Below, in pieces: positions 9,108 to 30,338 of a stretch of 40,249 bases of DNA. Under the pieces are notes generated by a model, which did no database searches, had not been told where the DNA came from, and worked only from the letters and a program-made list of their open reading frames with translations. This stretch comes from Clostridia bacterium (GTDB lineage: Bacteria; Bacillota; Clostridia; Christensenellales; Borkfalkiaceae). The first letter of the stretch is position 1. Each line of letters opens with the position of its first letter. The DNA lies in contig JAFWBT010000006.1 of NCBI GenBank assembly GCA_017507005.1, positions 1 through 40,249 of the forward strand, written 5' to 3'. Position numbers and translations under genes: made by a program.

Positions 9108-12100
9108 ATGAAGAAAAACACTAAAAGAAACTTAACAGCGTTATCACTGGTTGCAATGTTGTGTAGCGCTATTTTCGGCGCGGCGACTTTGATTCAGCCG
9201 AGCGTAGCGCGCGCGGAAACGACGCAGATTTATGAAACGCTTGACGGCTTTACGATCGAGTATACTGCATCTGTTCGTTCGACGGAACCGAACGGTATTC
9301 GTTTTGAAACGCAGATTGATTCTGCAACGAAAACGAAGATTGACGGTCTTATTAGCAACGCATCCTACGGTACGTTGCTGATTCCTGCTGACATGTTGGG
9401 TGCGGCTGAATTGACGCACGAAACGTCGATGATTTTGGATATCAAGACGAAGAACTGGCAGGACGACGATATTTCGGACGGCTCGATTTCGTACACCAGC
9501 GTTTTGGCTGGTAAGAAGCACGTAGACGGCACGTTTAGCAATCTGTCCGAATCGTACTACAACCGTCCATTGGTGGCTCGTAGCTACGTAACGGGCAAAG
9601 ACGGCTCGGGGAACACCGTCACCTATTACACCGAAAATACGGCTGTAAGAAGTATCGGTTACGTTGCGTATATGGCAATGATGAACGGTAGTACGAGTGA
9701 CCTGCTTTCCAAGATTGTAAACGGCACGAACGAAACGAACGGTACGGACGTAGAAGTCGTATTCGACACAACGCAGCAGATTGCGTACACGGAAGACGTA
9801 GGTAGCGGCGTTGCAATCGTTTATAATAACGTTAAAAAATCGACGGATAAAGCTATCGCGTTTAAAATCGGTGGCGTTGTCGCTTCTTTGGAAGAAGTTT
9901 CCAAATATTGTAAAAATATTTCCATAGAATATACGACGTCCTCGCCCAACGTTATTTCCGTTGACAACGCAACTTCGACGTTGACGGCAGTATCGAGCGG
10001 TTCGGCGACGATTGGCGCTACGGTTACTTGGGAATTCCAAGGCAAAGAATACGAACAGACCGTGAGCAAAACGATGAGCACGGACGCTGCTGCGCCTGTT
10101 TCGGATTATAAAATCTTAATCAGCGAAGCTGCGGCGGCTGCTAAGCTCAACTCGCAGACGGTTTATAACCCTGCGAAGAGTGCAGACGCATTTAATGCAT
10201 ATTATAACGCGTATGAAAAGACGGCTGCGTACAAATTCCAACAGATGGTAAGAGAGTCGACGGGCATTGAATTGCCTATCGTTACCGAAACGACGGCTGG
10301 TGGCAAGTACGTTTCTATCGGTGCTACGACGCTCGCTGACGGCATTGCGGTAGGTAGCGATAAAGAAACGGCGTCTACGGTGAAGATTGTAGACGGCAAC
10401 GTAATTATCGTTGGTGCGACGCCGGTTGGTACGCTCTTTGGCGTGCAGGAATTGCTGTACGATTTAGTAGGCTACGAATTCTTTATGGAAAACACCTATT
10501 CGGTAAACGAACAGGTGGAAGTTGTTTTGAAAGCGGAAAAATCGTTTATTCCCGATATCGAAGCCAACGTAACGCAGGGCTATGAAGAAACGTACGGCGT
10601 TATGGACGATTATTCGATGCAGCTCTATAATAAAGATATTATTCCCGTTGGTACGACGGATGCAGACGACGAAGGTCCTTACGCATACGCTGGTATTGCG
10701 CACAACTCCACGTGGGTTGTGAACGACGGTACGTATAAGGCGACTGCCGGTTATAGTGGTTCGGCAAGCTATAAAGAGTGGTATGCAACGTATAAGAAGT
10801 ATGGTTTTTTGACTTATTACCATACGATACCTAACGTATATTATGGTGGCGTAAACAGTGGGGAAAATCAGAACGTTCCGGGCTTTGCAAATACAACCGC
10901 AGAAACGGTTGCGGCAGAGCTTTGTTATACGGCGCACGGTAGCACCGACGCAACGACGGGCAGACCTGCTATGATTGAGAAAGTAGCATCGGCTATGTAT
11001 GCCAAGATGCTGAAATTCCCTACGTTGACTCGCATTGGGTTCTCGCAAGCAGACCACCGTATTTGGTGTGAATGTGATTCTTGTAAGGAGCAAGGTAATC
11101 CTTCGGATAACTTGTTGGAATTCTTGCTCGACGTAGCGGCATCGTTGAAAACCAAGCTTACTGATGCAGGGGACGCTCGTAAGGATGCCTTTAAAATCAG
11201 CACGCTGTTCTACCATATGACGCATCAGCCGCCTAAGAATACGGCAAACTACGCGACGAAACTTTCCGCATATATGAAACATATCGAACCGTGGCTTGCT
11301 GAAACGGCGGTAGACTACGTAGATCCTTTGGCTGAAACGTTGAACAATAATAGCCAAAACAACTGGAATACAACTGTTTACGGTTACAATAAGACTTGGG
11401 GTGAGCTTGCTAATAATTATGGTTCGGATGTGCTCCTTTGGGTATATTATGCGAACACGACCAGCTTCTTTATTCCTCTTGACACGTTTGACGCAATCCG
11501 CGGGAACTATGCTGCTGCTGCGGATTGGGGCGTAGATTACGTATTCAACCAAATGATGGGTTCCCGTCAGACGTGGGCTCGTTTCAAGCAGTATTTGATG
11601 TCCAAATTGGCTTGGAACGCAAATCCGACGGATGATGTATGGAACGGTTGGTATGATGAATATTTCGCAGGCGCATACGGTCAAGGCGCAACGCAAATGC
11701 GTAACTATTTCAATGAATGGAACACCTGGACGGATAATAATATCGATAATTATCGTAGAGATGATGATTGGAGTACCACGGCTGAAGGAACTGCATCCAT
11801 TGCCGTCGACGTGAGAGATTGGTCTACCACCACGGATAGCAAAGGTCTTAAAGCAACGACGTTAGAAAGCTGGATTTCTTGTATGGATGCGGCTATTGCG
11901 GCTTTGGATAAGAACGATCCGAAATACGAAACGTATCGTAAAAATATTATGTTGGAAAAGCTGACGCCGATGTATCTTCTTATGTGGATGCATGACGGCT
12001 ATACGCCCGTAATAGATGAGAACTATGATTGGTTGATTGATCCTAATCAAGTTGGTACGTTTGCTTCTACTACGTACGTACAAAAATACGGCGCGGAATT

Positions 12101-15100
12101 CTTGGCTTGGATAGAAAATTGGGGTATTCCCTACGACGGCGAAGGTACTTCGCGTGTTTTGGATCCTTTCTTGAAGGCGATTGACTCGTACGTGGATAAA
12201 GGAACGATTTCTACCAATAAATTGGTTGAAGAAAAACAGAGCTTGAATAAGAGCGCTGCTACTACGCTTTCTAACGTATTATTGGCAGACGGCACGTATA
12301 CGCTGTCGGGCGCGCTGAGCGGCACGGTAACGGCAACGAACGGCGTTGTAACGCTGAATACGAGTACGCTTGCTACCGGTGTAACGCATTCCATTACGTT
12401 CACGAATGATGCAACGGGTTCGACGGTTACGTTCTCGAATGTTGTTGTAAGCGACGTACTTGCAGGCACGGCTGGTCCAGTAGACGGTGAGAACGGCTAT
12501 TATACGATTGATAAGCTGTATTTCGCTGAATACGGCAAGACGGAAGCAACGTTGGCGCACGGCATATTTGAAAAGGGTGCGTACACGGCGACGGCTAATG
12601 GTATTGATACGGCAGCGACGCTCTTCGTGGCTGGTAAGATGGCGGTGAACGTTGGCGCAATGAACGTTGGTGAAACGTGTCAAGTTACCGTTGTTGACGA
12701 AGATAATAATACGTACGTCTTCACCGTAGTTTGTGCGAGATTTATTAGAACGGCGCAAGAGTTGAAAGATCTCGGCGTCGGCGGTAGAGTAGTAGGTGAA
12801 ACGGTATGGGGTAATGGTAACTCTGATACCGTAGGCAACGACGTAACAGGCTACTATGCGCTTGCAAACGATATCGATTGTACGGGCGTAGTATTTGCGG
12901 CTGGTTACAATAGAAGTCAATCCTTCTTCAAGGCAACGATTGACGGTAACGGCTATACGCTGTATAACGTAACCGTAAACGAAGGCGGTCTCTTCGGTGG
13001 TATGAGAGGTGCGACCGTTCAGAATATGAAGTTTGAAGACTTGTCTTACGACGATACCACTGGTCAGACTTATGGTGAAAGCTGGAGTAACTACACGGCA
13101 CTCTTTGCACATCAAGCAATCAATTCGACGTTTAAGAATATCGAAATTAGCGTGAAGAAAGCTATCACGTATACGACGAATTACGAATTGTTAGAAGGTT
13201 TGTTCGTTGCAAGTACAAACCAAAACAACGTATTCGATAATATCGTTGTAAACGCACACGGTCTCGACCTTGTAACGGCGCTTGGTAGCAACCACGTTTC
13301 GCCTATTTATAGAAACGTTATTATTAGAGCAAACAGCGTTGCGGCAATCGGCTATACGAGTAGCGAATACGCGGTGGACGAGAAGAACAGTGCTATTAGA
13401 GATGAAAAAAATCAATGTATTCAGAATACGACGGACTTGATGACGGCATGGCCTGCAGGCGTTACGTATGAACAGACTACGGCTGCTAAGAAGTTCACCA
13501 TCACGAACGAAGTAACGACGGTTGGTGCAGGGGATTCGATTGCGATTACGACGAGCAACGATGCTATGAGCTATACCTACGCTTTGGCGGAATACGTAGG
13601 CGGTGTAACGATTGAAGGCAATAACGTATGTGTTGACGCATCGGTATTGACGGATACGAAGATTACGGTACGCGTTACGGAAAATACGTCTGGTTGGACG
13701 CAAGAAATCGTGCTTACGGTGGTTAAGTCGGCTATCAATTTGAACACCGAGCTTACGATTGAAACGTATAACAATACGACAATCACGTTGCCCGCTGGTT
13801 ATGAAGGTGACGTCAACGCGATTGTGGTAGGCGATTTCTTACTGTATAGCAGAGTGAACAACGTCGGTAGCATTGAAAACGGCGTGCTTACGGTAGACGC
13901 TATGCCTGCAAAACAGGCTGACCTTGGCGAAGGTAAAGATTTCATCATCGATACCACTAAGGGCATCTATAAGGCAACGGCGAACGTTTACACGTTCATC
14001 ATTAACACGGTAGAAGAACTCGATATGTGGCAGAGCGTTGCGGCAGATAACTCTGTAAAGGCAGAGCTTTGTTTAGAAGAACAAAAGAAAGCAGTGCTTT
14101 CGGGCTATATCGTACTCGGTGACGATATCGCGTACAACAAGGCTTGGACGCCTATTCTTAACTTTGGCGGCATCTGGAACGTATTGGATAAGTCTGGCGG
14201 TATCGGCAGCACGGTAGTAGACAATCCTAAGGCAATCTTTGAAGATTGGGGTGCTGGTAAAGCGGCTGGTTTCCAAGGCGTATTCGACGGTAAAGGTCAT
14301 AGCATTGACGGTATGACGATTAACGGTCAGTACAGCGGTTTCATTATTACGATGGGCGTTAACGGTATCGCGAAGAACGTAGCGTTTACGAATTTGACGG
14401 TTGGCTCCGAGGCTGGTTTGTTTGAACGTGGCGGCAACGGCGGTCTTGTTGAAAACGTATATATCGAATTGAAAGCAATGGGCAACGGCGTTTCTAATAA
14501 CGCAACGAAGTTGATTAGTATGCAAGGTCATGGCCATACGAACGTGAAGAACATTATCGTCAACGTAACGAATTGCGATTTCTCGACGTCTGAATATCTC
14601 TATACGATGAACCTTGCTCACGTAAGCGCTGAAAACGTATACGTAATCGATAGAGACGTTCTTGAGTTCCAGAAAGCAAACTTTACAACGAGCACGGCTC
14701 CTTCTGCGTTCTTGAATTTCGACATGAACAACGACAAGGGCGGCAAGTTCGCAACGGTAGGCGATTTGCTTGCAGACGCAACGCACGGCGCAGTCGTATC
14801 TTCGCTCGGCGGCTACTGGAGCGTAGTAGACGGCAGATTGTACTTCGGTGACGTCGAAATCATCGAAGCGGCCGCAAAGGTATTCGATGACACCGAATAC
14901 GTGAACGATGTCAACCACCAGATCACGTTCGAAAACGAAGCGTTCACGGAAGGCAGTGTTTGGACGATGAGCGTAGAAGGCGTTGAATCCGAAGTTACGG
15001 TTCAAGCGGCAGGCGAATTGACGGTTACGCTTGACACGATGGCAATCAATGCTGAGACGACGGTAGTCAACTTCACGTCTGGTACGACGGTGCTCATCTT

Positions 15101-18100
15101 TACCAACGTTCACATCGTTACGTATATCAAGACGATGGCAGACATCAAAGCAATCGCTATGGGTGGAAACAACACCACGGCAACCTCACACCGTTATGGT
15201 AATTACATGCTTGCAAACAACATCACGTTTGAACACGTAGGTGATGGCTCTGATATCATTGCGGCAGGTTATCACGCCGCAGGTTCTGGCGAAAATGCAC
15301 ACAAGTTCTACTTTAAGGGTGTATTCGACGGTAACGGCTTCACGATTGACAATATGCGCGTATCTGACGGCGGTATCTTCGGTTATGCAGACGGCGCAAC
15401 GATTAGAAACGTTATCTTGACGAACGTACACTTACTTGATACGATTCCTGCGGGTATTTCGGCGCAGAACGGTGGCTATGCGGCAATCTTGGCGTATACG
15501 GCTCCCAGATCTACGTTCGAAGATATCCAAATGACCATTGCAAGCTCTCCCGCAAGCGTATGGACGTGGAAGAGAGACGGTTTGTTCGTATGTAGCAACA
15601 GTAGTGCTGGGGCGACCTTCCGTAATATCACGGTAGACGCAAGCTATATCGAATTGAAGACCTTGTTGGGTACCCACTATACTGAAAACAGCGTATATGA
15701 AAACGTTCTTATTAAGGCGGCGAACTACGCGGCAATCGGTTATACGGCTGACTCCTATTTGAACGGCGTTCAGAATACGGAGGCAATGCTGACGGAATTC
15801 CCTGCAGGCGTAACCTTTGAAAAGGTAGTGCACGTAGAAATTCCTAATCAACCTATGAATGCAAGCATGGAAAAACTCTCGGCATATACGGGCGACGAAA
15901 CGGCACTCGGCTTTGCAGAAGGCGCTAACGTATTCGAAGTCGTTAACTCGAATCAATGGAACGATAGAATCGTCTTCCCTGCAGATTCGGATACTTACGA
16001 CTACGTAGAATTCGACGTTGTACCTGGTGCTAAAACGGCTGCGTTTACGGCTTGGCCTTCTAACGGGAACGGCACGCAAGGTAGTATGGGTATCTACGGT
16101 GCGCAGATGAACACAGCTGACGGGTTGGTAAGAACGATTCAGGTATGGGATGCAAACGGCAATACGTTTGCGGCGCAAGACAGGGGTGGTTTTGCAGCAA
16201 ATACGTTCTATACGATTCGTATCTGCTTCGTAGAAGGCGAAACGGTGAAATACGTTCACTTCGGTACGGGTACGCTGCAGACCTACTACGTATCCAATGC
16301 AAGATGGGGTACTGTTGACGTAGAAAACGACGTATACGACAATACGACGGGTACGCTCCTTCCTAAATACGAAGGCGACGTAACGGCGCTTGGCTTTGAC
16401 GCAGGTTCTGTCGTAACGTCGGTAACGATTGATAACGATTGGTCCGACCGCATCGGTATCAACGGCAATATCAAGTACGACTTCGTAGACGTAGAATTTG
16501 CATTTAGCAGTGCAGGCGTTGCACGCAACCTCTGCCTGTGGATGTACGGCACTGACTCAACGATTCTTACTGGTAACTACATTGCAACGACGGCTGGCGG
16601 TACAACCTCCAACGCATCTGAAAGAACGATTCAGGTATTCAACGTAGACGGCAGTGCAGTTACGGAATCGACGTTCGTTACCAATAAAGTATACGTATTG
16701 CGCGTATATCTCAACGGTGACGCGTCCACGTTTGCGGTAAGTACTAGTGGCGCTTCGGAAGCATCTACTTCGGTTCTTTGCATTGGCGATATCACTTTCG
16801 GTAACGAAGTTGCGCTTAGCGACACGGTAGTAATTTCGGTTGAAGACGGCACGTTCACGTTGCCCGACGCAATCGAAGGCACGATTAAATCTATTATGGT
16901 TGACGGTGTTGTTGTCTATGACAGCAATACCGGCAGCCTCAACGGCAAGGACGTTGCAATCGACGTTGCATTGACGGCGGGTGTAGGTAAAGTCCTCACC
17001 GTTATCACGGACAGTGATACCTACGTTATGTCGGCAACTGTTAAAGTTCCCGACGTTACGGGTGTTGCAATTCAAAACACCAGCAAGTTAGATTTGACCG
17101 CATACGACGGTGATACGACGGCGATGGGATTCAAATCTGGCGATAAAGTTTACGAAATCACGTCTGCTGACCTTTGGTCGGATAGAATTCTTATCCCTGC
17201 AGATTCGGATGTTTACGACTACGTAGAATTCGACGTATATCTTAGCACGAGGATACCTTGCTTTACGGCTTGGCCTTCTAACGGGGACGGCACGCAAGGT
17301 AGTATGAGTATCTACGGTGCGCAGATGAACACAGCTGACGGGTTGGTAAGAACGGTTCGGGTATGGGATGCAAACGGCAATGCCTTCGTAGATCAATATA
17401 CTGGTGGTCTTGAAGCGAACACGTTCTATACGATTCGTATCTACTTCGTAGAAGGCGAAACGGTGAAATACGTTCACTTCGCTCCGAACACGGCACAGAC
17501 CTACTATCTCTCCAGCGCAAGATGGGGCAAGGTAGCCGTAGAAAACGACGTATACACGGGGGCAACTGGCGCGCTTCTTCCTAAATACGAAGGCGACGTA
17601 ACGGCGCTTGGCTTCGACGCAGGCTCTGTTGTGACGCAGGCAACGATTACAGATGGTTGGAACAGCCGTGTAAGAGTAAACGCCAACATTAAGTACGACT
17701 ACGTAGACGTTGAATGGTCGTTCACGGGTAACCGTGGAATCGGTTCGCTTTGCGTATGGATTTACGGTACGAATGGCGCCGTTATCACTGGTAACTACAA
17801 CGTTACTGCTAACGGCGGTACGCCTGCAAATAATGCGACAGAAAGAACGATTCAGATTTTCGATACGAATTACAATGCGGTTGGCTCGTTTGAAAAAGAT
17901 ACGGTATACATCTTGCGTGTATATCTCGACGGCAACGCATCTTCGATTGCGGTAAGTACGTTTGATACCAGTGCAGACAACTCGGCAATCTTGAACTTCG
18001 GCGATATCACTTTCGGTAACGCATACGAATCGGATGAATACGTCATCCTTGAAACGAAAACGGCTTCCTATACGTTGCCTGACGTTGTTGAGGGTAATGT

Positions 18101-19451
18101 TAAGAAGATCGTTGTAAACGGCGTTACGATTTACGACGAAAATACCGGCAGCCTTAGCGGCAAGGATGGTACGTACGACGTAGATATCACGGTTGGTACC
18201 GTATACGAAATGGTAATCTATACCGAAGAAAACAACATCTATTTCTTTAACACGATCGCTGCTAACGAGATTATTACGACGGCAGACGAACTCAGAGCGC
18301 TCGGTGTGGGCGGCATGGTGAACACGGATATTACGGCAAATATTACTGGGTACTACGTACTTGGTAACGACATCGAAATTGTGCATCAGGACGATTTTAC
18401 CGACGTATTTGCGGCAGGCTATCCTAAATCGGGTACGTTCTACTTCAGCGGCACGTTCGACGGTCTTGATCATACCATTCACGGTGTTCGCGTAGCCGAC
18501 GGCGGTATCTTCGGTATGATGCGTAATGCTACGGTGAAGAATCTTAACCTCACTGGCGTACAGTATCGTCACGACGCTCCTGCGACGGTTACCAACCAGC
18601 AAGGTGGTTATAGAGCATTGTTCGCGTATGCAGCACCTAGCTCTACTTTCGAAAATATCTACGTTCAAGTTGTATATACGTCTGATACTTGGGATTGGAA
18701 GAGAGACGGTGTGCTGGTCAACACAAGTAGTTGGGGCGCAGCAACCTATCGTAACATTACGGTAGACGCGAGCGGTATTTAACTGAGAACGCTTTTGGGT
18801 ATCGATTATTCGGATAGTAACGTATTCGAAAATGTTGTCTTCAAGGCAACGGGCTACGTGGCAATCGGTTATACGGGCGACTCCTACGGTGCGGGCGGCG
18901 TACAGAATACGGCGGCAATGCTGACGGAATTCCCTGCAGGCGTATCCTTTGAATTTGCAAACGGTTTGGTTGCACAAAACAATGGCTATGCATCGGATTA
19001 CGTGGTTTACCAAGGTGACGTAACGGCGCTTGGTTTTGCTGAGGGTACGCGCGTTATCGAATCTGGTATTGATACGGCGTCTGGTTGGGATCCTGCTTAT
19101 GCGACCCGTGCAAAAGTAGGCTACGTTGATACTAGCTACGACTATATGGATATTCAGTTCTCGGCAACCAAAGCAGGCGCAAGTTTCACGGTTTGGGATG
19201 GCGTTAACGCAAGTTATAGCGTTACGGCGACGACGGTTACTCCGTCTAAGGTAGAGTCGGCAAGAACGATTCAGATTTTTGACGCTAATGGCGATATAGT
19301 TTCGGCCCTTGAAGCAAACAAGATGTATACAATGCGTGTATATATGGTTGCGGCAAACGGCGACGGTATCAACAACTTCCAAATCACGTCTACCAATGCT
19401 GGTAAGCTCTACTTCGGTGACGTAACGTTCGGCAACGACATTACTGCTTGA
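9108..19451 (+). pseudogene. Giant secreted surface protein with DUF4838-like glycosidase module, interrupted by an in-frame TAA
   Basis: The first open part (9108-18779) encodes 3224 residues. A signal peptide is clear: KKNTKR, a hydrophobic core, cleavage after ARA at residue 36. Residues about 40-210 form a domain typical of clostridial surface proteins (GIRFETQID, YGTLLIPADML). About 235-330 look Big_2-like. About 333-870 resemble DUF4838, with GFSQADHRIWCECDSCK and NLLEFLLDVAASL. Then come beta-helix repeats of GLUG style (FDGNGFTIDN, GGIFGYADGATIRNV) at about 1213-1455, 1628-1915, 2000-2241 and from 3055. Two near-duplicate 406-residue carbohydrate-module-like blocks lie between. No LPXTG or S-layer anchor is seen. 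TAA at 18780-18782 replaces a GAA present in the paralogous repeat; reading continues in the same frame for 222 residues to TGA 19451. GGGGAGG at 9091-9097 fixes the start. Confidence 0.8.
15840..18270 (+). repeat. Two tandem copies of a 1218-base coding repeat in the giant gene
   Basis: Blocks beginning near 15840 and 17058 repeat with an offset of 1218 bases (406 codons). DNA is almost identical over the stretch starting at 16044 and 17262 (TTTACGGCTTGGCCTTCTAA and on, about 100 bases with few changes) and again around 16370 and 17585. Other parts of the unit have diverged. This patchwork points to gene conversion or recent duplication. A third, shorter relative lies at 19000-19451. Confidence 0.85.
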
Positions 19452-21404: not shown

Positions 21405-21893
21405 ATGAGCAAAGTCGGTATTTTAATGGGTAGCAAATCGGATTTCGACGTGGTAAAACCCGCCGTGTCCATTTTGAAAAAATTTGGCGTAGAAACGGAG
21501 GTCCGTGTCATTTCCGCGCACCGTACGCCTGACGAGGCACACGAATTTGCGGCGAACGCAAAAAAGAACGGTATGGAAGTTATTATTTGCGCGGCAGGTA
21601 AAGCGGCACATTTGGGCGGCGTGATTGCGGCGCTCACTACGCTTCCCGTAATCGGGTTGCCCGTAAAGACGGATATGATGGGTGGCTTGGATAGTCTGTT
21701 GTCTATCGTGCAAATGCCCTCGGGGATTCCCGTGGCAACGGTGGGCGTGAACGGCGGCGAAAACGCAGGTCTGCTCGCTTTGCAAATTTTGGGTATCAAA
21801 TACCCCGAAATTGCGGCGCAGCTCGACGATTATAAAAAAGCAATGCAAGATAAAATCAACGCAGACGACAAAGCGCTGCAAGAATTGCTCTAA
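21405..21893 (+). CDS. purE: N5-carboxyaminoimidazole ribonucleotide mutase (PurE class I)
   Basis: Converts N5-CAIR to CAIR in de novo purine synthesis. The 162-residue length is typical for class I. Motifs: GILMGSKSDFD at the N-terminus, ISAHRTPDEA with the catalytic His, AAGKAAHLGGVIAALT, and PSGIPVATVGVNGGENAGLLA. ATG 21405 has AAGGAGAG about 7 bases upstream; an upstream TTG near 21360 falls inside the terminator stem and is rejected. It is the first gene of the operon and is followed by purF after 21 bases. PurK, which would make its substrate, is not in the window. Confidence 0.96.
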   Translation: MSKVGILMGSKSDFDVVKPAVSILKKFGVETEVRVISAHRTPDEAHEFAANAKKNGMEVIICAAGKAAHLGGVIAALTTLPVIGLPVKTDMMGGLDSLLSIVQMPSGIPVATVGVNGGENAGLLALQILGIKYPEIAAQLDDYKKAMQDKINADDKALQELL

Positions 21894-21914: not shown

Positions 21915-23324
21915 ATGGCAGTATTTGGTATTTTCGGAACGGAAACGGCAAACGTTGCGTCCAGCGTTTATTACGGGCTGTATGCCCTGCAACATCGCGG
22001 TCAGGCGTCCACGGGTATCGTGGTGAACGACGACGGCGTATTCCACGCCTATAAAGATTCGGGACTGGTCAACGAAGTATTCACGCCGAACGTTTTAAAG
22101 GGCTTGGGGCTTGGTCAAATTGCTGTGGGGAACGTGCGTTACGGTACGTCCGACACCAAAGACCGTATCAATGCCGAGCCTATTGTCGTCAATCACAGCA
22201 AAGGCAAATTGGCGATTTCGTTGGACGGTAAGCTCGTCAACGCGGCGGACTTGAAACGGGAAATGGAAATGCAAGGCTTGATTTTCCATACGGGCAACGA
22301 CGCTGAAATCATTTCCGCCGTCATCATCAAAGAACGTATTACTTCGTCCTCGATAGAAGAGGCGGTGGGGCGCGCAATGAACAAACTCAAAGGCGCGTAT
22401 TCGATTATAATTATGTCCCCGCAAAAGCTGATTGCCGTGCGAGATCCTCGCGGTATGCATCCGCTTTGCTACGGTCAGCGTGACGACGGCGAATACGTTA
22501 TATCCAGCGAAACGTGCGCGTTGAACTCTGTTGGCGCAACGTATATTCGTGATATTGCGCCAGGGGAAGTAATCGTCTTTACGAAAGAGGGGATTCGTTC
22601 GATTAAAGACCATTGCGATAAAGAGAGCGAACGTCTTTGCGTGTTTGAATATCTGTACACGGCAAGACCGGATTCGGAGATAGCCGGCTGTTCGGTACAT
22701 TTGGCTAGAAAACGTGCAGGCGCGTTCCTTGCCAAGGCGCATCCCGTCGAGGCGGACGTTGTAATCGGCGCGCCCGATTCGGGTATCGACGCGGCAATCG
22801 GGTACGCAGAGGAATCGAAGATTCCCTACGGTTTGGGGCTGATTAAAAATAAATATATCGGCAGAACGTTTATCGATCCCGGTCAAAACGTGCGCGAGGA
22901 TAAGGTGAAGATAAAGCTCAACCCCGTTGTGGAAACGGTGAAAGGTAAACGTGTCGTGCTCGTAGACGACTCGATTGTAAGAGGTACGACGATGGTGCGC
23001 GTGGTAAAGCTGTTGCGCGACGCAGGGGCTACGGAAATACATATCCGCTCGTCCGCGCCCGCTTTCCTCAATCCTTGCTACTATGGCACGGATATCGCGT
23101 CGAGGGACGTTTTGATTGCTTGCAATCACACGACAGAAGAAATGGCGCGTATTTTCGGCGCAGATTCGGTAGGGTTCTTGCCTTTGGAGGACGTGTTCAA
23201 GCTGGGCGCGTCGGGTACTTGTAAAGGCTATTGCGCGGCGTGCTTTAACGGCGATTATCCCACGGAAGAGCCTACGCCTATGGACGATAAGTACGATCAG
23301 AAGATTACAAAAAATAAAAACTAA
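21915..23324 (+). CDS. purF: Amidophosphoribosyltransferase (PurF) with a degenerate glutaminase site
   Basis: Normally makes 5-phosphoribosylamine from PRPP and glutamine, the first step of purine synthesis. The phosphoribosyltransferase half is intact: GLIKNKYIGRTFI, the PRPP loop VVLVDDSIVRGTT, and four Fe-S cysteines at 242, 388, 440 and 443. The 242-388 spacing equals that of the Bacillus subtilis enzyme. The N-terminal nucleophile half keeps YYGLYALQHRGQAS and VRYGTSDT but starts MAVFGIFG where the family has CGVFGI, so the catalytic Cys1 is missing. The oxyanion motif HNGN is replaced by LDGK (103-106). No upstream in-frame start restores a Cys. The enzyme may therefore use free ammonia or a partner glutaminase. 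GGAGCGGAGG precedes ATG 21915. Confidence 0.92.
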   Translation: MAVFGIFGTETANVASSVYYGLYALQHRGQASTGIVVNDDGVFHAYKDSGLVNEVFTPNVLKGLGLGQIAVGNVRYGTSDTKDRINAEPIVVNHSKGKLAISLDGKLVNAADLKREMEMQGLIFHTGNDAEIISAVIIKERITSSSIEEAVGRAMNKLKGAYSIIIMSPQKLIAVRDPRGMHPLCYGQRDDGEYVISSETCALNSVGATYIRDIAPGEVIVFTKEGIRSIKDHCDKESERLCVFEYLYTARPDSEIAGCSVHLARKRAGAFLAKAHPVEADVVIGAPDSGIDAAIGYAEESKIPYGLGLIKNKYIGRTFIDPGQNVREDKVKIKLNPVVETVKGKRVVLVDDSIVRGTTMVRVVKLLRDAGATEIHIRSSAPAFLNPCYYGTDIASRDVLIACNHTTEEMARIFGADSVGFLPLEDVFKLGASGTCKGYCAACFNGDYPTEEPTPMDDKYDQKITKNKN

Positions 23325-23354: not shown

Positions 23355-24380
23355 ATGGCGATTTCCTACAAAGACAGCGGCGTTGACGTAACGAGAGGTT
23401 ACAAAGCCGTAGACCTTATGAAAAAACACGTAAAATCCACCTATAACGAAAACGTTATCGGGGATTTGGGTTCGTTTGGCGGTTTCTTTTCAATCGCAGG
23501 AGAAAAGATGGAAGAACCCGTTCTCGTTGCGGGTACGGACGGCGTTGGCACGAAGCTGAAATATGCGTTCTTGCTCGAAAAACACGACACGATCGGTATT
23601 GACGCCGTAGCTATGTGCGTAAACGATATCGTATGTCAGGGCGCAAAGCCTTTGTTCTTCCTCGACTATTACGCTTGCGGCAGACTGTATCCCGAATCGG
23701 AAGCGGAAGTGGTAAAAGGTATCGCAGAGGGCTGCCGTCAGGCAGGCTGCGCGCTGATTGGGGGTGAAACGGCGGAAATGCCTGGTTTCTATCCCGACGG
23801 TGAATACGACCTTGCCGGCTTTGCCGTAGGTATCGTAGACAAGAAAAAGGTTATCAACGGCAAAAATATCGTGCCTGGGGACGTGTTGATTGGTTTGAAA
23901 TCGACGGGCGTACACTCCAACGGCTATTCGCTCGTTCGTAAGTTGTTTGGCGACGAGGACAAAGCGGCGCTTAAAAAATACGACGAAGAGCTGGGTGCAA
24001 CGGCGGCGGAAGTGCTGTTAAAGCCCACGAAGATTTACGTAAAGAGTATTCTTTCGCTCATTGAACAGGTGGACGTAAAGGGTATCGCGCATATCACGGG
24101 CGGCGGCTTTATTGAAAATATTCCCAGAATTTTGCCCGAGGGTGTAGCGGCGGAAATCGATAAAAATTCGTACGAAGTACCGCCCGTATTCAAAGTAATG
24201 CAAAAGCGCGCGGAAATCACCGACGAACAGATTTACAATACGTTTAATATGGGTATCGGTATGATCGTATGCGTAGCGCCTGAAAACGTAGACGCGGCAA
24301 TGGCAGCGTTGACGGCGAGCGGTGAAGACGTAGTCGTCGTTGGTAAGACGGTGGCAGGCAAAGGCGTTATTTTGAAATAA
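23355..24380 (+). CDS. purM: Phosphoribosylformylglycinamidine cyclo-ligase (AIR synthetase)
   Basis: Closes the imidazole ring of FGAM with ATP to give AIR. The 341 residues match family length. Motifs: YKDSGVDV at the N-terminus, [48 protein letters not shown] with the PurM signature, and THGVHSNGY-like [14 protein letters not shown], ending with the glycine-rich HITGGGF. GGAGAAG lies about 8 bases before ATG 23355, 30 bases after purF. Nothing unusual. Confidence 0.97.
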
Positions 24381-24422: not shown

Positions 24423-25040
24423 ATGAAAAAAATAGCAGTATTCGCATCGGGCGGCGGCACGGATTTTCAGTCCGTTATCGACGCAAACGAACGGGAAAAC
24501 TTTTGTGAAATCGCGTATTTGGTAGCCTCAAAACCGACTATCGGCGCGATTGCGCGCGCTGAAAAGCACGGCATACAGCCTTTGGTGTACGATAAAACGA
24601 AAGAGACCAAGGACGAATTTTACGCGCGCGTAGCGGCGACGCTGAAAGAGAGCGGCGTGGAATATATCGTTTTGGCAGGTTGGCTTCTCGTCGTGCCTGC
24701 GGCGTTTATTCAACAATTCGAGGGGCGCATTATCAATATTCATCCCTCGCTGATTCCCTCCTTTTGCGGTATGGGTTATTACGGCCTGCACGTACACGAA
24801 AAGGCAATCGAATACGGCGTAAAGCTCAGCGGTGCGACGGTGCATTTCGTTGAGGCGGACGTGGACGGTGGCGCAATCATTATGCAACGCGCCGTACCCG
24901 TAGAGCCAGACGACACCCCCGAAACACTGCAACAGAGAATATTGAAAGAGGAACATCAAATGCTGCCGCAATGCGTACGCCTTTTGTGCGAGGGCAGAGT
25001 GCAAAAAGAGGGCAGAATGGTAAGAATTTTGGCTGAATAA
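24423..25040 (+). CDS. purN: Phosphoribosylglycinamide formyltransferase (formyl-THF dependent)
   Basis: Transfers a formyl group from 10-formyltetrahydrofolate to GAR. The 205 residues are of normal length. It begins KKIAVFASGGGTDFQSVID, the phosphate-binding loop. Catalytic residues are recognisable: Asn105 and His107 in INIHPSLIPSF, and Asp148 in ADVDGGAII. AAAGGATATAAGCAAA upstream gives only a moderate ribosome site. The gene sits 42 bases after purM. It shows that this organism uses the folate route at this step, though a PurT elsewhere cannot be excluded. Confidence 0.96.
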   Translation: MKKIAVFASGGGTDFQSVIDANERENFCEIAYLVASKPTIGAIARAEKHGIQPLVYDKTKETKDEFYARVAATLKESGVEYIVLAGWLLVVPAAFIQQFEGRIINIHPSLIPSFCGMGYYGLHVHEKAIEYGVKLSGATVHFVEADVDGGAIIMQRAVPVEPDDTPETLQQRILKEEHQMLPQCVRLLCEGRVQKEGRMVRILAE

Positions 25041-25044
25041 GCGT

Positions 25045-25323
25045 ATGGATATCCTCATAGAAATTTTTTTGGAGATATACTTAGAGCTGATGTTTCTAAT
25101 CGTACCCGAAGAAAAACGCAAAAGAAAGCACCGAATAATCGTAGGAATCCTTGCTATCGTGGAGTTAATCGGTTTGTTTGCATTGCTCATTTGGGGTTGT
25201 TATCTTATTGAGGATAAGAAAACGCCGTGGGGCTGGTTGCCGCTGATAGGGGTAATCGTTTTGTCGATTGCACAAATAGTGACGGGTATTATCTTGTATT
25301 TTAAGAGAAACAAAAGAGATTAA
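25045..25323 (+). CDS. Small membrane protein of unknown function inside the purine operon
   Basis: 92 residues. An acidic amphipathic N-terminus (residues 1-20) is followed by a KRKRKH loop and two predicted membrane helices, about 30-53 (IIVGILAIVELIGLFALLIW) and 63-85 (LPLIGVIVLSIAQIVTG), with a basic KRNKRD tail. Start ATG 25045 lies only four bases after the purN stop without an obvious Shine-Dalgarno sequence, so translation is probably coupled to purN. I recognise no family and no known purine role. It could be a passenger, or a transporter accessory or envelope protein. The open frame between two purine genes and the coherent transmembrane pattern support its being real. Confidence 0.75.
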   Translation: MDILIEIFLEIYLELMFLIVPEEKRKRKHRIIVGILAIVELIGLFALLIWGCYLIEDKKTPWGWLPLIGVIVLSIAQIVTGIILYFKRNKRD

Positions 25324-25344: not shown

Positions 25345-26619
25345 ATGAACGTTTTAGTAATAGGGAACGGCGGCAGAGAACACGCCGTAATACAGGCACT
25401 GGCAAAGTCGCCAAAAGTAAATAAAATTTACGCTATGAAAGGCAACGCAGGCATTGCGGAGCTTGCCGAGCTTGTCAACGTCGATTATTGCGACGTGAAA
25501 GCGGTGGGCGATTGGGTAGACGCGCATAAAGACGTGGATTTCACCGTCGTCACCCCCGACGATCCGCTCGCGCTTGGGCTTGTGGACGAACTCGAAAGCC
25601 GTGGACATCGCGCTTTCGGACCGCGTAAAAACGCCGCGATTATTGAGGCGAGCAAAGCGTTCTCCAAAGAACTTATGAAAAAATATAATATCCCTACGGC
25701 GAAATACGAAACCTTTTCCGATTACGAAGCGGCAAAGGCGTACGTGGATACCTGCGATATCCCCGTCGTGTTAAAGGCGGACGGGCTTGCGCTGGGCAAA
25801 GGCGTGCTTATCTGCACGACGCGCGAAGAGGCGCAGGACGGCTTGCGGGAAATGATGCTCGATAAGAAATTCGGCTCGGCAGGCAACAAAGTCGTCGTGG
25901 AAGAATTTTTGGTCGGGCCTGAGGTGTCCGCTTTGGCGTTCACGGACGGCAAGACGATAAAGCCTATGATTACGAGCTGCGATCACAAACGTGCACTCGA
26001 TAATGACGAGGGCTTGAATACGGGTGGTATGGGTACGTTTTGTCCCGCTCCGTTCTTTGGCGAAAAATCGGCAAAGGAAGTGATGGAAAAGATAATGCTG
26101 CCTACCATGTACGCGATGAACGCAGAAGGACGTACCTTTAAAGGCGTGTTATACTTCGGGCTGATGAAGACGAAGGACGGGTATAAAGTGATTGAATACA
26201 ACTCCCGTTTTGGCGATCCTGAAACGCAGGTCATCTTGCCTATGCTCAAAACCGACTTGATGGAAATTTTCGAGGCGGTGGTAGACGAACGCTTGGACGA
26301 GGTGAACGTGGAATGGGAAGACGGCGCGTGCGTGTGCTTGGTGCTCGCAAGCGGCGGTTATCCCGAAAAGTATGAAAAAGGCAAAGAAATCACGTTTGGG
26401 GATTTGGATAGCGACGTTGTGTTGTGCCATGCAGGTACGGCGGAAAAGGACGGCAAAATCGTGACGAGCGGCGGCAGAGTGCTCGGCGTGTGCGCGAAAG
26501 GCGCGGATATCGAGGCGGCGCGGCAAAAGGTGTACGCGAACGCGAAGAAGATTAGCTTTGACGGTATGTTCTATCGTAAGGACATCGGCATTAAATATAA
26601 AGACGTAGTAAAAGAGTAA
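25345..26619 (+). CDS. purD: Phosphoribosylamine-glycine ligase
   Basis: ATP-grasp enzyme that joins glycine to phosphoribosylamine, giving GAR. At 424 residues the length is standard. Motifs: VLVIGNGGREHA at the N-terminus, VVTPDDPLALGLVD, the ATP-grasp segment VVLKADGLALGKGV, the DHKRALDNDEG-GLNTGGMGTF signature, and EYNSRFGDPETQ supplying the metal ligands. GGAGAACG precedes ATG 25345 by about 7 bases. It directly consumes the unstable product of PurF, here a PurF with an unusual glutaminase half. Confidence 0.97.
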   Translation: MNVLVIGNGGREHAVIQALAKSPKVNKIYAMKGNAGIAELAELVNVDYCDVKAVGDWVDAHKDVDFTVVTPDDPLALGLVDELESRGHRAFGPRKNAAIIEASKAFSKELMKKYNIPTAKYETFSDYEAAKAYVDTCDIPVVLKADGLALGKGVLICTTREEAQDGLREMMLDKKFGSAGNKVVVEEFLVGPEVSALAFTDGKTIKPMITSCDHKRALDNDEGLNTGGMGTFCPAPFFGEKSAKEVMEKIMLPTMYAMNAEGRTFKGVLYFGLMKTKDGYKVIEYNSRFGDPETQVILPMLKTDLMEIFEAVVDERLDEVNVEWEDGACVCLVLASGGYPEKYEKGKEITFGDLDSDVVLCHAGTAEKDGKIVTSGGRVLGVCAKGADIEAARQKVYANAKKISFDGMFYRKDIGIKYKDVVKE

Positions 26620-26636: not shown

Positions 26637-29600
26637 ATGATTTACAGAATTTTCGTAGAAAAGAAAGATAACGTACAGGCAAGAAAAGAGGCGGCGGATA
26701 TCAAGACGCTGCTCGGTATTGATACGGAAGATTTTCGTTTGGTGCTCCGTTACGACGTAGAGGGGCTTAACGAGGACGAACTGAACGCAGCGATTCCCTC
26801 GGTGTTTTCCGAACCGCCCGTCGATCACGTGTATTTGGAAACGTTGGAAATCCCTTGCGGCTATAAGGCGTTTGCCGTTAGCTATCTGACGGGACAGTAC
26901 GACCAGCGCGCGGACAGCGCGGCACAATGCGTACAGCTGTTGACGAAAAAATCCCGCCCGCTGATTAAATGCGCGAAAGTGTATATGGCGAAAGGCGTGA
27001 CGGAAGCGCAGCTCGACGCGATTAAAAAACATATCATCAACCCCGTAGAAAGTGAAGAGGTTGGCTTTGAAAAGCCCGAAACCCTCGTTCGTGAAACGGT
27101 GGAAGGCGCGCCGATTGAGGACGTGAAAGGCTTTATCGCTATGTCCGACGAAGAAATCGCGGCGTATCATAAGAATATCGGCTTTGCTATGAGCGTTGCC
27201 GATCTCGCTTTCGTGCGCGATTATTTCAAGAAAGAGGGGCGCGATCCCAAGGAAACGGAGCTGAAAGTAATCGATACGTACTGGTCGGATCACTGCCGTC
27301 ACACGACGTTCGCTACCGAGCTGAAAAACGTAAAGATTACGTCCGAAAACAAGGGCATTGAAAAGGCATATCATCTGTACGAGGAACTGTATAAAGAGCT
27401 GAACGGCCACCGTCCCGATAAATATCCTTGCCTTATGGATTTGGCGACGATTGCGGCGAAAAAGCTGAAAAAGGACGGTAAACTCGACAATCTCGATATT
27501 TCCGACGAAATCAACGCTTGTTCGATTCAAATTGAGGCGGAAATCGACGGCAAGAAAGAACAATATCTCGTTATGTTCAAGAACGAAACGCACAACCACC
27601 CGACGGAAATCGAGCCGTTCGGTGGCGCGGCTACCTGTCTTGGCGGCGCAATCCGCGATCCGCTGTCGGGTAGAACGTACGTATACCAAGCTATGCGTAT
27701 CACGGGCGCGTCCGATCCCAGAGAAAAACTGGAAGACACGTTGGCAGGCAAGCTTCCTCAGCGTGCGATTACGCAGCGTGCGGCGGCAGGGTTCTCCTCG
27801 TACGGCAACCAAATCGGTCTTGCAACGGGTATCGTTGACGAAGTATATCACGAGGGGTATAAGGCAAAGCGTTTGGAAACGGGCTTCGTCGTTGGCGGCG
27901 CACGTAAGGAAATGGTATACCGCGAAGCGCCCAAGGCAGGCGACGTGATTATTCTGCTCGGCGGTGAAACGGGGCGCGACGGCTGTGGCGGCGCAACGGG
28001 TTCGTCCAAGGCGCACGATTCGCACTCGGTAGAGACCTGCGGCGCGGAAGTGCAGAAAGGTAACGCTTTGACGGAAAGAAAATTACAGCGTTTGTTCTTG
28101 AATAAAGAAGCAACGCGTAAAATTAAGAAATGTAACGACTTTGGCGCGGGCGGTGTTTCCGTTGCCATTGGCGAGCTGGCAGACGGCTTGAATATCGATT
28201 TGGACAAAGTGCCTAAAAAATACGAGGGCTTGAACGGTACGGAATTGGCGATTTCTGAATCGCAAGAACGTATGGCAGTCGTTGTAGACGCGAAAGACGT
28301 CGATGCGTTTATCGCGCTTGCGGCGGAAGAAAACCTCGCGGCTACGCCCGTTGCCGTCGTCACCGATACGGGCAGAATGAAGATGTTCCTCAAAGGCGAG
28401 GCAATCGTGGACATTTCCCGTGACTTCCTGAATACCAACGGCGTAAAGCAGGAAACGAACGTAGAAATCGACGATAAAAAGACGACGTGGTTTGATAAAA
28501 AGAGCGGCGTGAAATTTGCCGAAGAAACGAAGAAGATTATTTCCGACCTCAACGTTTGCGCGAAGAAAGGCCTTAGCGAAACGTTCGACTCGACGATTGG
28601 CGCGCGTACGGTGTATATGCCTTGGGGCGGTAAGAAGCAGTTGACTCCGGCAATCGCTATGGCGGCGAAAATTTGTGGCGGTGAAACGGACGTTTGTACG
28701 GTATCCGCGTACGGCTATTCGCCTTATCTTATGGAAACTAGCCCGTTTATCGGCGCTATCTATTCCATCGTGGCGTCAGTGTCCAAGGTCGTCGTGACGG
28801 GAGCGAAATATAGCGACGTGCGTTTGACGTTGCAGGAATTCTTCCAAAGAATGACCAGAGAAGCAAAGGTGTGGGGCGTTCCCACGTCCGCGCTCCTTGG
28901 CGCGGTATACGCGCAGATGGGCTTGGGGCTTGGTGCAATCGGCGGCAAGGACAGCATGAGCGGTACGTTTGAAAATATCCACGTACCTCCTACGCTCATC
29001 TCGTTCGCGCTTGCGCCTGCAAAGGCAAGCGAGCTGATTACAAACGTCTTGAAAGGAGGCGAAAAGCTCTATTATATCCCCGTGCCCAAGGATGAAAATT
29101 CCGTTCCCGATTTCGAGGGTTTGAAGAAAGTTTACGAAGAAGTCTATAAAAACATCAAGAGCGGCAATATTACGTTTGCCACGGTCGTGGAAAACGGCGG
29201 TGTTGGTGCGGCGGTTATCAAATCGGCGCTCGGCAACGGCGTTGGCGTGCAATTTGCAATGAGCGCAGACGAATTGTATACCGAGGGCTACGGCGATCTC
29301 GTCGTTTCGTTGAAGGACGACAGCGCGATTTGCAGCTGTATAAATAAGAAATACGTAGGGCAGGTATGCGGCGAAGCGTTCGTTTGCGGCAACGACAGCG
29401 TTGCTATCGACGGCGTTGAGAGCGCGTATATCGGCGCTTTGTCGAGCGTGTTCGCAGTCACCGCACCCGCGGACGGCGTTGCGGAAAATTGCGATTATAC
29501 GTCGGGCGCGAAGTATACGAATATTGCGACGAAACTCGCAAAGCCGCGCGTGTTTATTCCCGTGTTCCCCGGCACGAATTGCGAGCTGGATACCGCGAGA

Positions 29601-30338
29601 AAGTTTATTCTTGCCGGCGCGGACGTAGAAACGGTAGTCGTACGCAACCGCAGCGCGCAGGATATCGAAGAGAGCGTTGAACGCATCGTTAAGGCGATTA
29701 AGAACGCGAATATTATCGCGTTCCCCGGCGGCTTCTCGGGCGGTGACGAACCAGACGGCAGTGGTAAATTTATCGCAACGACCTTCCGTAATCCGTATAT
29801 TGCTGAGCAGGTGGAAGAATTGTTGAACAATCGCGATGGCTTGGCGCTGGGTATTTGTAACGGCTTCCAGGCGCTTATCAAGCTTGGTCTTGTGCCTTAC
29901 GGCCACGTAACGGAAATGACGGCGAATTCGCCTACGCTTACGTTCAATAACATTTCCCGTCACGTTTCGACGGTGGTGGACGTTCGCGTTGCGTCCAATC
30001 TGTCGCCTTGGCTGTCCGCTTGTAAAGTGGGTGAGGTATACAAAGTGCCTGTATCCCACGGCGAAGGCAAAATCGTTGCGCCGATGGCAGAGCTTGAAAA
30101 AATGAAAGCAAACGGTCAGGTGGCAACGCAGTATGCAGACCTTTCGGGCGCGCCTACCATGACGTCGCCGTTCAATCCCAACGGCTCGATGTGGGCTATC
30201 GAGGGTATCACGTCGCCCGACGGCAGAGTGCTCGGTAAGATGGGACACAGCGAACGTATCGGCGAAAATCTGTATAAGAACGTCGAGGGCAACTTCGATA
30301 TGAAGATTTTTGAAAGCGGCGTTCAGTATTTCAAATAA
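26637..30338 (+). CDS. purL: Phosphoribosylformylglycinamidine synthase, single large polypeptide
   Basis: Converts FGAR to FGAM with ATP and glutamine. The 1233-residue form carries everything in one chain. It has a PurS-like N-terminal domain (about 1-140), a linker with the signature YWSDHCRHTTFATEL, two AIR-synthetase-like ATP domains (FKNETHNHPTEIEPFGGAAT; GGKDSMSGTF) and a C-terminal class I glutaminase. The last has Cys1074 in LGICNGFQ, and His1141 and Glu1143 in VSHGEGK, so the triad is complete. Most Bacillota use separate purS, purQ and short purL; here none of these is needed. GAGGACG precedes ATG 26637, 17 bases after purD. It is the last purine gene of the run. Confidence 0.97.
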   Translation: MIYRIFVEKKDNVQARKEAADIKTLLGIDTEDFRLVLRYDVEGLNEDELNAAIPSVFSEPPVDHVYLETLEIPCGYKAFAVSYLTGQYDQRADSAAQCVQLLTKKSRPLIKCAKVYMAKGVTEAQLDAIKKHIINPVESEEVGFEKPETLVRETVEGAPIEDVKGFIAMSDEEIAAYHKNIGFAMSVADLAFVRDYFKKEGRDPKETELKVIDTYWSDHCRHTTFATELKNVKITSENKGIEKAYHLYEELYKELNGHRPDKYPCLMDLATIAAKKLKKDGKLDNLDISDEINACSIQIEAEIDGKKEQYLVMFKNETHNHPTEIEPFGGAATCLGGAIRDPLSGRTYVYQAMRITGASDPREKLEDTLAGKLPQRAITQRAAAGFSSYGNQIGLATGIVDEVYHEGYKAKRLETGFVVGGARKEMVYREAPKAGDVIILLGGETGRDGCGGATGSSKAHDSHSVETCGAEVQKGNALTERKLQRLFLNKEATRKIKKCNDFGAGGVSVAIGELADGLNIDLDKVPKKYEGLNGTELAISESQERMAVVVDAKDVDAFIALAAEENLAATPVAVVTDTGRMKMFLKGEAIVDISRDFLNTNGVKQETNVEIDDKKTTWFDKKSGVKFAEETKKIISDLNVCAKKGLSETFDSTIGARTVYMPWGGKKQLTPAIAMAAKICGGETDVCTVSAYGYSPYLMETSPFIGAIYSIVASVSKVVVTGAKYSDVRLTLQEFFQRMTREAKVWGVPTSALLGAVYAQMGLGLGAIGGKDSMSGTFENIHVPPTLISFALAPAKASELITNVLKGGEKLYYIPVPKDENSVPDFEGLKKVYEEVYKNIKSGNITFATVVENGGVGAAVIKSALGNGVGVQFAMSADELYTEGYGDLVVSLKDDSAICSCINKKYVGQVCGEAFVCGNDSVAIDGVESAYIGALSSVFAVTAPADGVAENCDYTSGAKYTNIATKLAKPRVFIPVFPGTNCELDTARKFILAGADVETVVVRNRSAQDIEESVERIVKAIKNANIIAFPGGFSGGDEPDGSGKFIATTFRNPYIAEQVEELLNNRDGLALGICNGFQALIKLGLVPYGHVTEMTANSPTLTFNNISRHVSTVVDVRVASNLSPWLSACKVGEVYKVPVSHGEGKIVAPMAELEKMKANGQVATQYADLSGAPTMTSPFNPNGSMWAIEGITSPDGRVLGKMGHSERIGENLYKNVEGNFDMKIFESGVQYFK

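Follow-up and report, generated by a model that had tools for sequence, protein, structure and literature searches.

Results

A purine operon with a PurF homologue that lacks its catalytic cysteine

We analysed a stretch of 40,249 nucleotides from a Clostridia genome, here called the window. A purine operon lies on its + strand in the order purE-purF-purM-purN-(92-aa protein)-purD-purL, with the following features:

21405..21893, + strand: purE (Pfam AIRC)
21915..23324, + strand: purF, encoding a Cys-less PRPP amidotransferase homologue of 469 aa (TIGR01134, 459.6 bits; Pfam GATase_7, GATase_6, Pribosyltran)
21915..21920, + strand: Met1-Ala2, at the site of the mature Cys1-Gly2 of active PurFs (sequence, alignment)
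22221..22232, + strand: LDGK replacing HNGN, residues 103-106 (sequence, alignment)
22638..23243, + strand: span of Cys242, Cys388, Cys440 and Cys443, all kept (sequence, alignment)
22950..23000, + strand: PRPP-binding loop RVVLVDDSIVRGTTMVR, intact (sequence, alignment)
23355..24380, + strand: purM (Pfam AIRS; tree)
24423..25040, + strand: purN (Pfam Formyl_trans_N)
25045..25323, + strand: 92-aa protein without a Pfam match, within the operon
25345..26619, + strand: purD (Pfam GARS)
26637..30338, + strand: purL, with intact class I glutaminase motifs (Pfam GATase_5; motifs; tree)

The match of the window PurF to TIGR01134 was above the cut-off of 350 bits and covered positions 4-432 of 432, as expected of a full-length PurF. 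The preliminary description had noted the start MAVFGIFG and the absence of the catalytic Cys. The absence was confirmed, but the alignment corrected one detail: Met1 (ATG-GCA, MA-VFGIFG) stands under the Cys1 column and Ala2 under the old Gly2, so that Cys1 is missing and not swapped for Ala. A C-to-A point substitution was ruled out by the same alignment. The remaining observations of that description held. No upstream in-frame start supplies a Cys (the upstream open frame reads GAEGFSK), LDGK stands at residues 103-106, and the phosphoribosyltransferase site and the four Fe-S cysteines are kept.

Compared with class II (Ntn) amidotransferases, the window PurF lacks both the N-terminal catalytic Cys and HNGN, which we take to be the oxyanion motif. 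It retains Arg75, Tyr76, Thr78 and Asp129; Arg75 and Asp129 are presumably the glutamine-binding residues. The PRPP-binding loop VVLVDDSIVRGTT is intact and carries the VDDSIVRGTT motif of PurF enzymes. Cys242, Cys388, Cys440 and Cys443 are all present, and we take these to be Fe-S ligands of the B. subtilis type. As judged from sequence, the protein has no working glutaminase in cis. PurL of the same operon carries GICNGFQ at 29850 and PVSHGEGK at 30048. We looked for a second purF, as the preliminary description had proposed, and the window's own genome (71% complete) gave a single PurF match.

The gene for the 92-aa protein, in the purN/purD gap, was present in only some loci of the genus. 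Elsewhere in the window, positions 9108-18782 encode a protein of 3224 aa with a signal-like start, whose sole Pfam match was DUF4838. Rfam at gathering threshold detected only a tRNA in the window and no ZMP-ZTP riboswitch. This riboswitch was found 5' of purE in two of seven other loci, both from the second Cys-less group described below (L184, 11028-11108; L186, 1503-1582).

Cys-less PurFs occur in two groups of gut bacteria

We searched 101 genomes, the window's and relatives, with TIGR01134; 57 of them belong to the window's genus. Cys-less PurF was read in 44 of the 57, and only Cys-containing PurF in six (G001, G002, G007, G010, G029, G046); the PurF type was not readable in the other seven (G005, G009, G021, G022, G032, G041, G043). 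A second, distant Cys-less group comprised 28 genomes, detected first among the best 80 of 189 in a wider genome scan and then by further reads. Its PurFs start MGVFGIIG, MGIFAIIG, MSVFGIIG and similar, and scored 907-928 bits against a profile of Cys-less PurFs. In a sample of 396 genomes from the window's order, scores above 900 with this profile were reached by just three, all belonging to the window's genus (next score, 826), and none of the 110 listed of 145 relatives of G458 came from the order sample. From these two results, the second group seems to belong to an order other than the window's.

We sorted 116 distinct PurFs, counting identical proteins once, into 62 Cys-less and 54 Cys-containing sequences. 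Rows without a readable start were dropped (L055, a C-terminal fragment; L068, frame-broken), divergent paralogues below 300 bits (L069-L071) were dropped or moved from the comparison rows, and L012, initially labelled 'noC?', was reassigned manually to the Cys-containing set. At the HNGN columns, H was present in 17/62 Cys-less versus 54/54 Cys-containing PurFs, the first N in 7/62 versus 54/54, G in 61/62 versus 54/54 and the last N in 2/62 versus 50/54. Cys242, Cys388 and the PRPP loop DD..VRGT were present in every sequence of both sets (62/62 and 54/54), and alignment A1 (36 rows) showed no variation at any of the four cysteines. Glutamine-pocket residues were largely retained in the Cys-less PurFs (Arg75, 60/62; Tyr76, 62/62; Asp129, 54/62). 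Residue 2 was Ala or Gly in 59/62, Ala in the window. These column counts indicate that the glutamine-splitting chemistry of the Cys-less PurFs is gone, as predicted from sequence, with the pocket partly kept and the transferase site untouched.

The loss of the glutaminase beside an intact transferase, which the preliminary description had reported for one protein, thus extended across a clade, and the suggested alignment of relatives showed it to be lineage-wide (44/57 genus genomes plus 28 in the second group). Only 2/62 Cys-less frames have an in-frame Cys upstream of the start. In L118 this Cys immediately precedes Met1 and in L108 it lies 12 residues ahead of Met1; in neither case does Cys-Gly-Val-Phe-Gly result. 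A sequencing error or an upstream Cys1, raised earlier as what could undo the observation, was excluded by 62 distinct sequences, none of which restores CGVFG.

The bacteria with Cys-less PurF live in the gut and are uncultured; many were recovered from hindgut samples of deer, sheep and goats. Titles naming a gut segment were available for 42/62 Cys-less rows, and all 42 named cecum, colon or rectum (sampling was uneven, and 20 named none). These are ammonia-rich sites.

purF has a different history from purL and purM

In a PurF tree, 30 of 31 sampled Cys-less PurFs formed one clade (SH-aLRT 100); a smaller, more careful tree placed 18 of 18 in one clade (100/100). L066 of G097, with Ser at the Cys1 column, fell outside this clade and represents a separate loss. 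In trees of PurL (11 rows) and PurM (12 rows), the window's group joined the Cys-containing G007, G010 and G046 (and G029) of the same genus (support 100), and the second Cys-less group stood apart from the window's group with a long branch between. Constraining the window-group PurFs to group with those same Cys-containing PurFs, a grouping named after the first tree, was rejected (log-likelihood 297 lower; AU P = 1.9e-6). A single vertical history of the operon was ruled out by this conflict. Because PurL and PurM follow the native grouping and PurF rejects it, the most likely history is that the genus acquired an already Cys-less purF horizontally and that this gene took the place of the native one between purE/purC and purM. 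At L105, a Cys-less locus, purM resembles that of the second group by eye (compare L141), which suggests a longer transferred piece there.

The median pN ratio of the glutaminase half to the transferase half was 1.54 and 1.27 in the two Cys-less groups versus 0.95 in Cys-containing relatives. Median dN/dS was 0.07-0.11 in all groups, a rough estimate with synonymous sites near saturation. A dead gene is not expected to displace a live one.

Other glutamine-dependent enzymes are altered in the same genomes

PurC matches were found in 47/57 genus genomes, 24 of them below the family cut-off, and AICAR transformylase (purH) in 44/57. An incomplete purine pathway was ruled out by the presence of purC and purH in the genus. 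Two kinds of purC were seen: the one next to purF was standard, and the other, at a separate location, was divergent and scored below the family cut-off. In the window's genome, the PurH match (G000:C5:5813-6750) was split over two frames, perhaps by an assembly error.

We surveyed GuaA, PyrG and CarA in 80 chosen genomes: 63 with only Cys-less PurF (38 from the genus and 25 from the second group), five with both PurFs and 12 with only Cys-containing PurF. The 63 are drafts from two gene-sharing lineages and not independent cases, the 12 were hand-chosen and not random, and five Cys-less genus genomes were left out (G015, G042, G045, G049, G051).

By open-frame length, GuaA measured 315-380 aa in 53 of the 63 Cys-less-only genomes, which leaves no room for a glutaminase domain; the type in the other 10 was not assignable (no match or a fragment). 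Only G011 among the 63 had a full-length GuaA besides the short one. GICYGxQ was absent from all 35 short GuaAs read, most of which start 42 residues before SGGVDSSV (45 in the window's genome, whose GuaA has 340 aa). None of the 12 Cys-containing genomes had a short GuaA: 11 encoded proteins of at least 440 aa and G010 gave no match. G490 and G481, with proteins of 633 aa, were scored by length. The glutaminase part was decayed in the 579-aa GuaA of G086 and in one of two copies in G060, both Cys-containing. These proteins (L332 and L241, respectively), with an N-terminal glutaminase remnant, fell just outside the short-GuaA clade, and G060 has an intact GuaA as well. The short GuaAs of both Cys-less groups formed one intermingled clade (support 97), which indicates that the gene moved between the groups.

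The CarA nucleophile was lost in 33/33 readable core copies of the genus, G036's included (Gly in 31, Asp in one, Glu in one; G055 was unreadable and G054 was not fetched), and kept in 6/6 Cys-containing genus genomes. Six extra CarA copies keep the Cys (G011, G013, G060, G097, G472, G489); the second CarA lost it in G060 and is altered in G097. In the second Cys-less group, CarA was found in only 3/28 genomes, with Ser in G468. Given this scarcity, the second group may not make carbamoyl phosphate by CarAB at all.

PyrG (CTP synthase) was not found in 61/63 Cys-less-only genomes, including seven of nine near-complete ones, and was present in G011 and G013; it was found in 12/12 Cys-containing genomes and in 4/5 with both PurFs. 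GlmS exceeded the cut-off in 6/44 Cys-less genus genomes and in 0/9 of those at least 93% complete. It was present in only 4/6 Cys-containing genus genomes, missing in G007 and G029, so GlmS loss does not strictly track PurF. The genomes without GlmS (most of the Cys-less and two of the Cys-containing genus genomes) must obtain glucosamine-6-phosphate by a different route. Among 17 second-group genomes, seven had a GlmS-like match and 10 an AsnB-like match.

Two glutaminases were retained. Among 59 PurL frames from Cys-less loci, 54 kept the Cys and the remaining five were shorter and lacked that stretch; the PurL His was read in 52 frames (duplicates included in both counts). HisH-like proteins retain GICLGMQ in G000, G037 and G458. 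The preliminary description had argued from PurL against a general loss of glutamine use. This stands for PurL and HisH but not for GuaA and the genus CarA, which lost their glutaminases; GlmS is rare in the genus and PyrG mostly gone.

A PF00117 search of four Cys-less-only genomes (G000, G037, G048, G458) returned only HisH-like proteins and the Cys-less CarA. TIGR01134 gave no second match in seven of the nine Cys-less genus genomes that are 93-96% complete; the other two had three matches in all (G011) and two (G048), the weakest of these not being among the matches listed. Class II domain proteins of 371 aa and 399 aa were seen in G011 and G019. They are probably GOGAT glutaminase subunits, by likeness to a 364-aa glutamate synthase neighbour in L068.

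A few genomes carry additional glutamine-type enzymes

A Cys-containing PurF accompanied the Cys-less one in five genomes (G036, G454, G472, G489, G097). In G454, G472 and G489 the Cys-containing purF lies within a run of purB, guaA, pyrG and purF; purC, purA and carA were also read in this run in G472 and G489, and asnB in G489. The Cys-containing PurFs of these three genomes formed their own clade (support 99). Contamination as the whole cause of the two-PurF genomes was rejected, as three of the five share gene order and PurF clade. The two-PurF state of G036 could be a binning error, its second copy lying on a 4.4-kb contig.

In G097, the operon purF (L066) has Ser, and the Cys-containing purF (L068) is broken over two frames within a nitrogen-assimilation cluster. 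The neighbours of L068 are carA, pyrG, AsnB, an ammonium transporter-P-II fusion, a type III glutamine synthetase and a glutamate synthase. G011, which has no second PurF, carries glutamine synthetase, glutamate synthase and an ANTAR regulator on one stretch with asnB, guaA and pyrG. The location of remaining glutamine-dependent enzymes beside nitrogen-assimilation genes in some genomes supports two isozyme sets, a putative ammonia type in the core and a glutamine type as accessory. In AsnA/AsnB pairs elsewhere, the glutamine-type enzyme is the one used at low ammonium. Genomes with an extra glutamine-type PurF, GuaA, PyrG or CarA would likewise use those under scarce ammonium.

Discussion

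We consider it very likely that the PurF of the window is functional and forms phosphoribosylamine from PRPP with free ammonia, the Ntn glutaminase domain serving as a catalytically dead scaffold. Ammonia would be the in vivo donor for Cys-less PurFs and would be supplied by the gut; the enzymes would work like Cys1 mutants of E. coli PurF, the ammonia entering from outside. The PurF change is best read as part of a wider switch from glutamine to ammonia. Some findings point the other way. Arg75, Tyr76 and Asp129 are largely kept, which simple decay would not require; GlmS-like, AsnB-like and other class II enzymes persist in part of the Cys-less genomes; and a decayed GuaA glutaminase occurs already in G086 and G060, which have Cys-containing PurF.

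The preliminary description had offered two options, free ammonia or a separate glutaminase. In the second case a glutaminase subunit would feed PurF, or another protein, for example PurL, would pass ammonia to it. The retention of both domains and of several glutamine-pocket residues speaks for this arrangement. Two-subunit amidotransferases are known, archaeal GuaA among them (PMC10526850), and G011 and G019 have class II proteins, probably GOGAT subunits. Yet the near-complete genus genomes mostly lack a second PurF-model match, the PF00117 search of four genomes yielded only HisH-like proteins and the Cys-less CarA, and no extra gene was common to the operons of both groups by eye. We regard this arrangement as unlikely. 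Because second PurF matches are few and the PF00117 results are as described, ammonia supply would fit better than a separate glutaminase.

The faster change of the glutaminase half could instead mark a decaying or regulatory remnant, with purines salvaged or PRA coming from another route. This is very unlikely, given the universal PRPP loop and Cys242/Cys388, a dN/dS near 0.1, the adjoining purE, M, N, D and L together with purC and purH in the genus, and the apparent displacement of the native copy by the Cys-less gene. It is more doubtful still that another residue, an N-terminal Ser or an internal Cys, stands in for Cys1 and lets some members hydrolyse glutamine. Ser does occupy residue 2 in 3/62 Cys-less PurFs and four further loci, L066 has Ser at the Cys1 column itself, and L192 has Cys at residue 5, but Ala or Gly prevails at residue 2 and HNGN is broken in most Cys-less PurFs. 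An assembly error or a wrong start codon would have been conceivable in a draft genome that is 71% complete. The clade-wide pattern already refutes it: the feature recurs in 62 distinct sequences, and the two upstream in-frame Cys residues are not in a CGVFG context. We give this possibility next to no weight.

Beyond PurF itself, a broader shift is reasonably probable: in both of these distantly related groups of gut Clostridia, free ammonia would have taken the place of glutamine in much of the amide chemistry of nucleotides. Dead-glutaminase PurF and glutaminase-less GuaA would have been shared by horizontal transfer, the genus CarA inactivated as in CPS I, GlmS mostly dropped in the genus and PyrG lost from nearly all genomes. 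Glutamine isozymes would persist only as accessories in a few genomes, some in a nitrogen-assimilation cluster, the two interchangeable sets being chosen by ammonium supply.

One lineage appears to have exchanged its PurF for a version with a dead glutaminase, while GuaA and CarA underwent parallel losses. Routine annotation hides this loss, since family models still call the proteins amidophosphoribosyltransferases with glutamine amidotransferase domains. The system makes it testable how far channelled ammonia is needed when outside ammonia is abundant, and why PurL and HisH retain glutaminases. Our data suggest that de novo purine synthesis in Cys-less bacteria would depend directly on local ammonia. 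We infer that DON, acivicin and like glutamine analogues should miss Cys-less PurF.

Within the open-licence literature, judged by title and the start of the abstract, we found neither a bacterial clade of Cys-less PurFs nor the combination of losses described; the nearest case was an archaeal paralogue, Mlab_0150 of Methanocorpusculum labreanum (PMC3261824). Mlab_0150 lacks the Cys and has Ser instead, as L066 of G097 does. It is a duplicate beside an intact PurF, and the authors doubt that this duplicate is a PurF enzyme, whereas Cys-less PurF is mostly the only PurF found. The window PurF is a full-length two-domain homologue of B. subtilis PurF (1AO0/1GPH; 421 bits to 1ao0) and shares its PRPP loop and Fe-S cysteines, but Cys1 and HNGN are missing and its glutaminase is predicted to be dead. 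In E. coli PurF, replacement of Cys1 by Ala or Ser is reported to abolish activity with glutamine but not with ammonia (PMC3261824, citing earlier work). The absence of Cys1 is common to these mutants and the window PurF, and ammonia use was seen in the mutant. Those mutants are laboratory-made, whereas the Cys-less PurF is natural, clade-wide and apparently transferred, and has lost the oxyanion loop too.

Vertebrate CPS I (PMC7657897) keeps a glutaminase domain without the catalytic Cys and is ammonia-dependent, as we propose for Cys-less PurF. It is a different enzyme, and its direct parallel is the CarA of the window's genus. For single-domain NAD synthetase, ammonia has been argued to be the physiological donor, and one of two forms is reported to have been lost in lineages and transferred (PMC3376133). 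There the single-domain form is held to be ancestral, whereas the dead domain of Cys-less PurF is derived. Cys-less PurF most likely works like CPS I or single-domain NAD synthetase.
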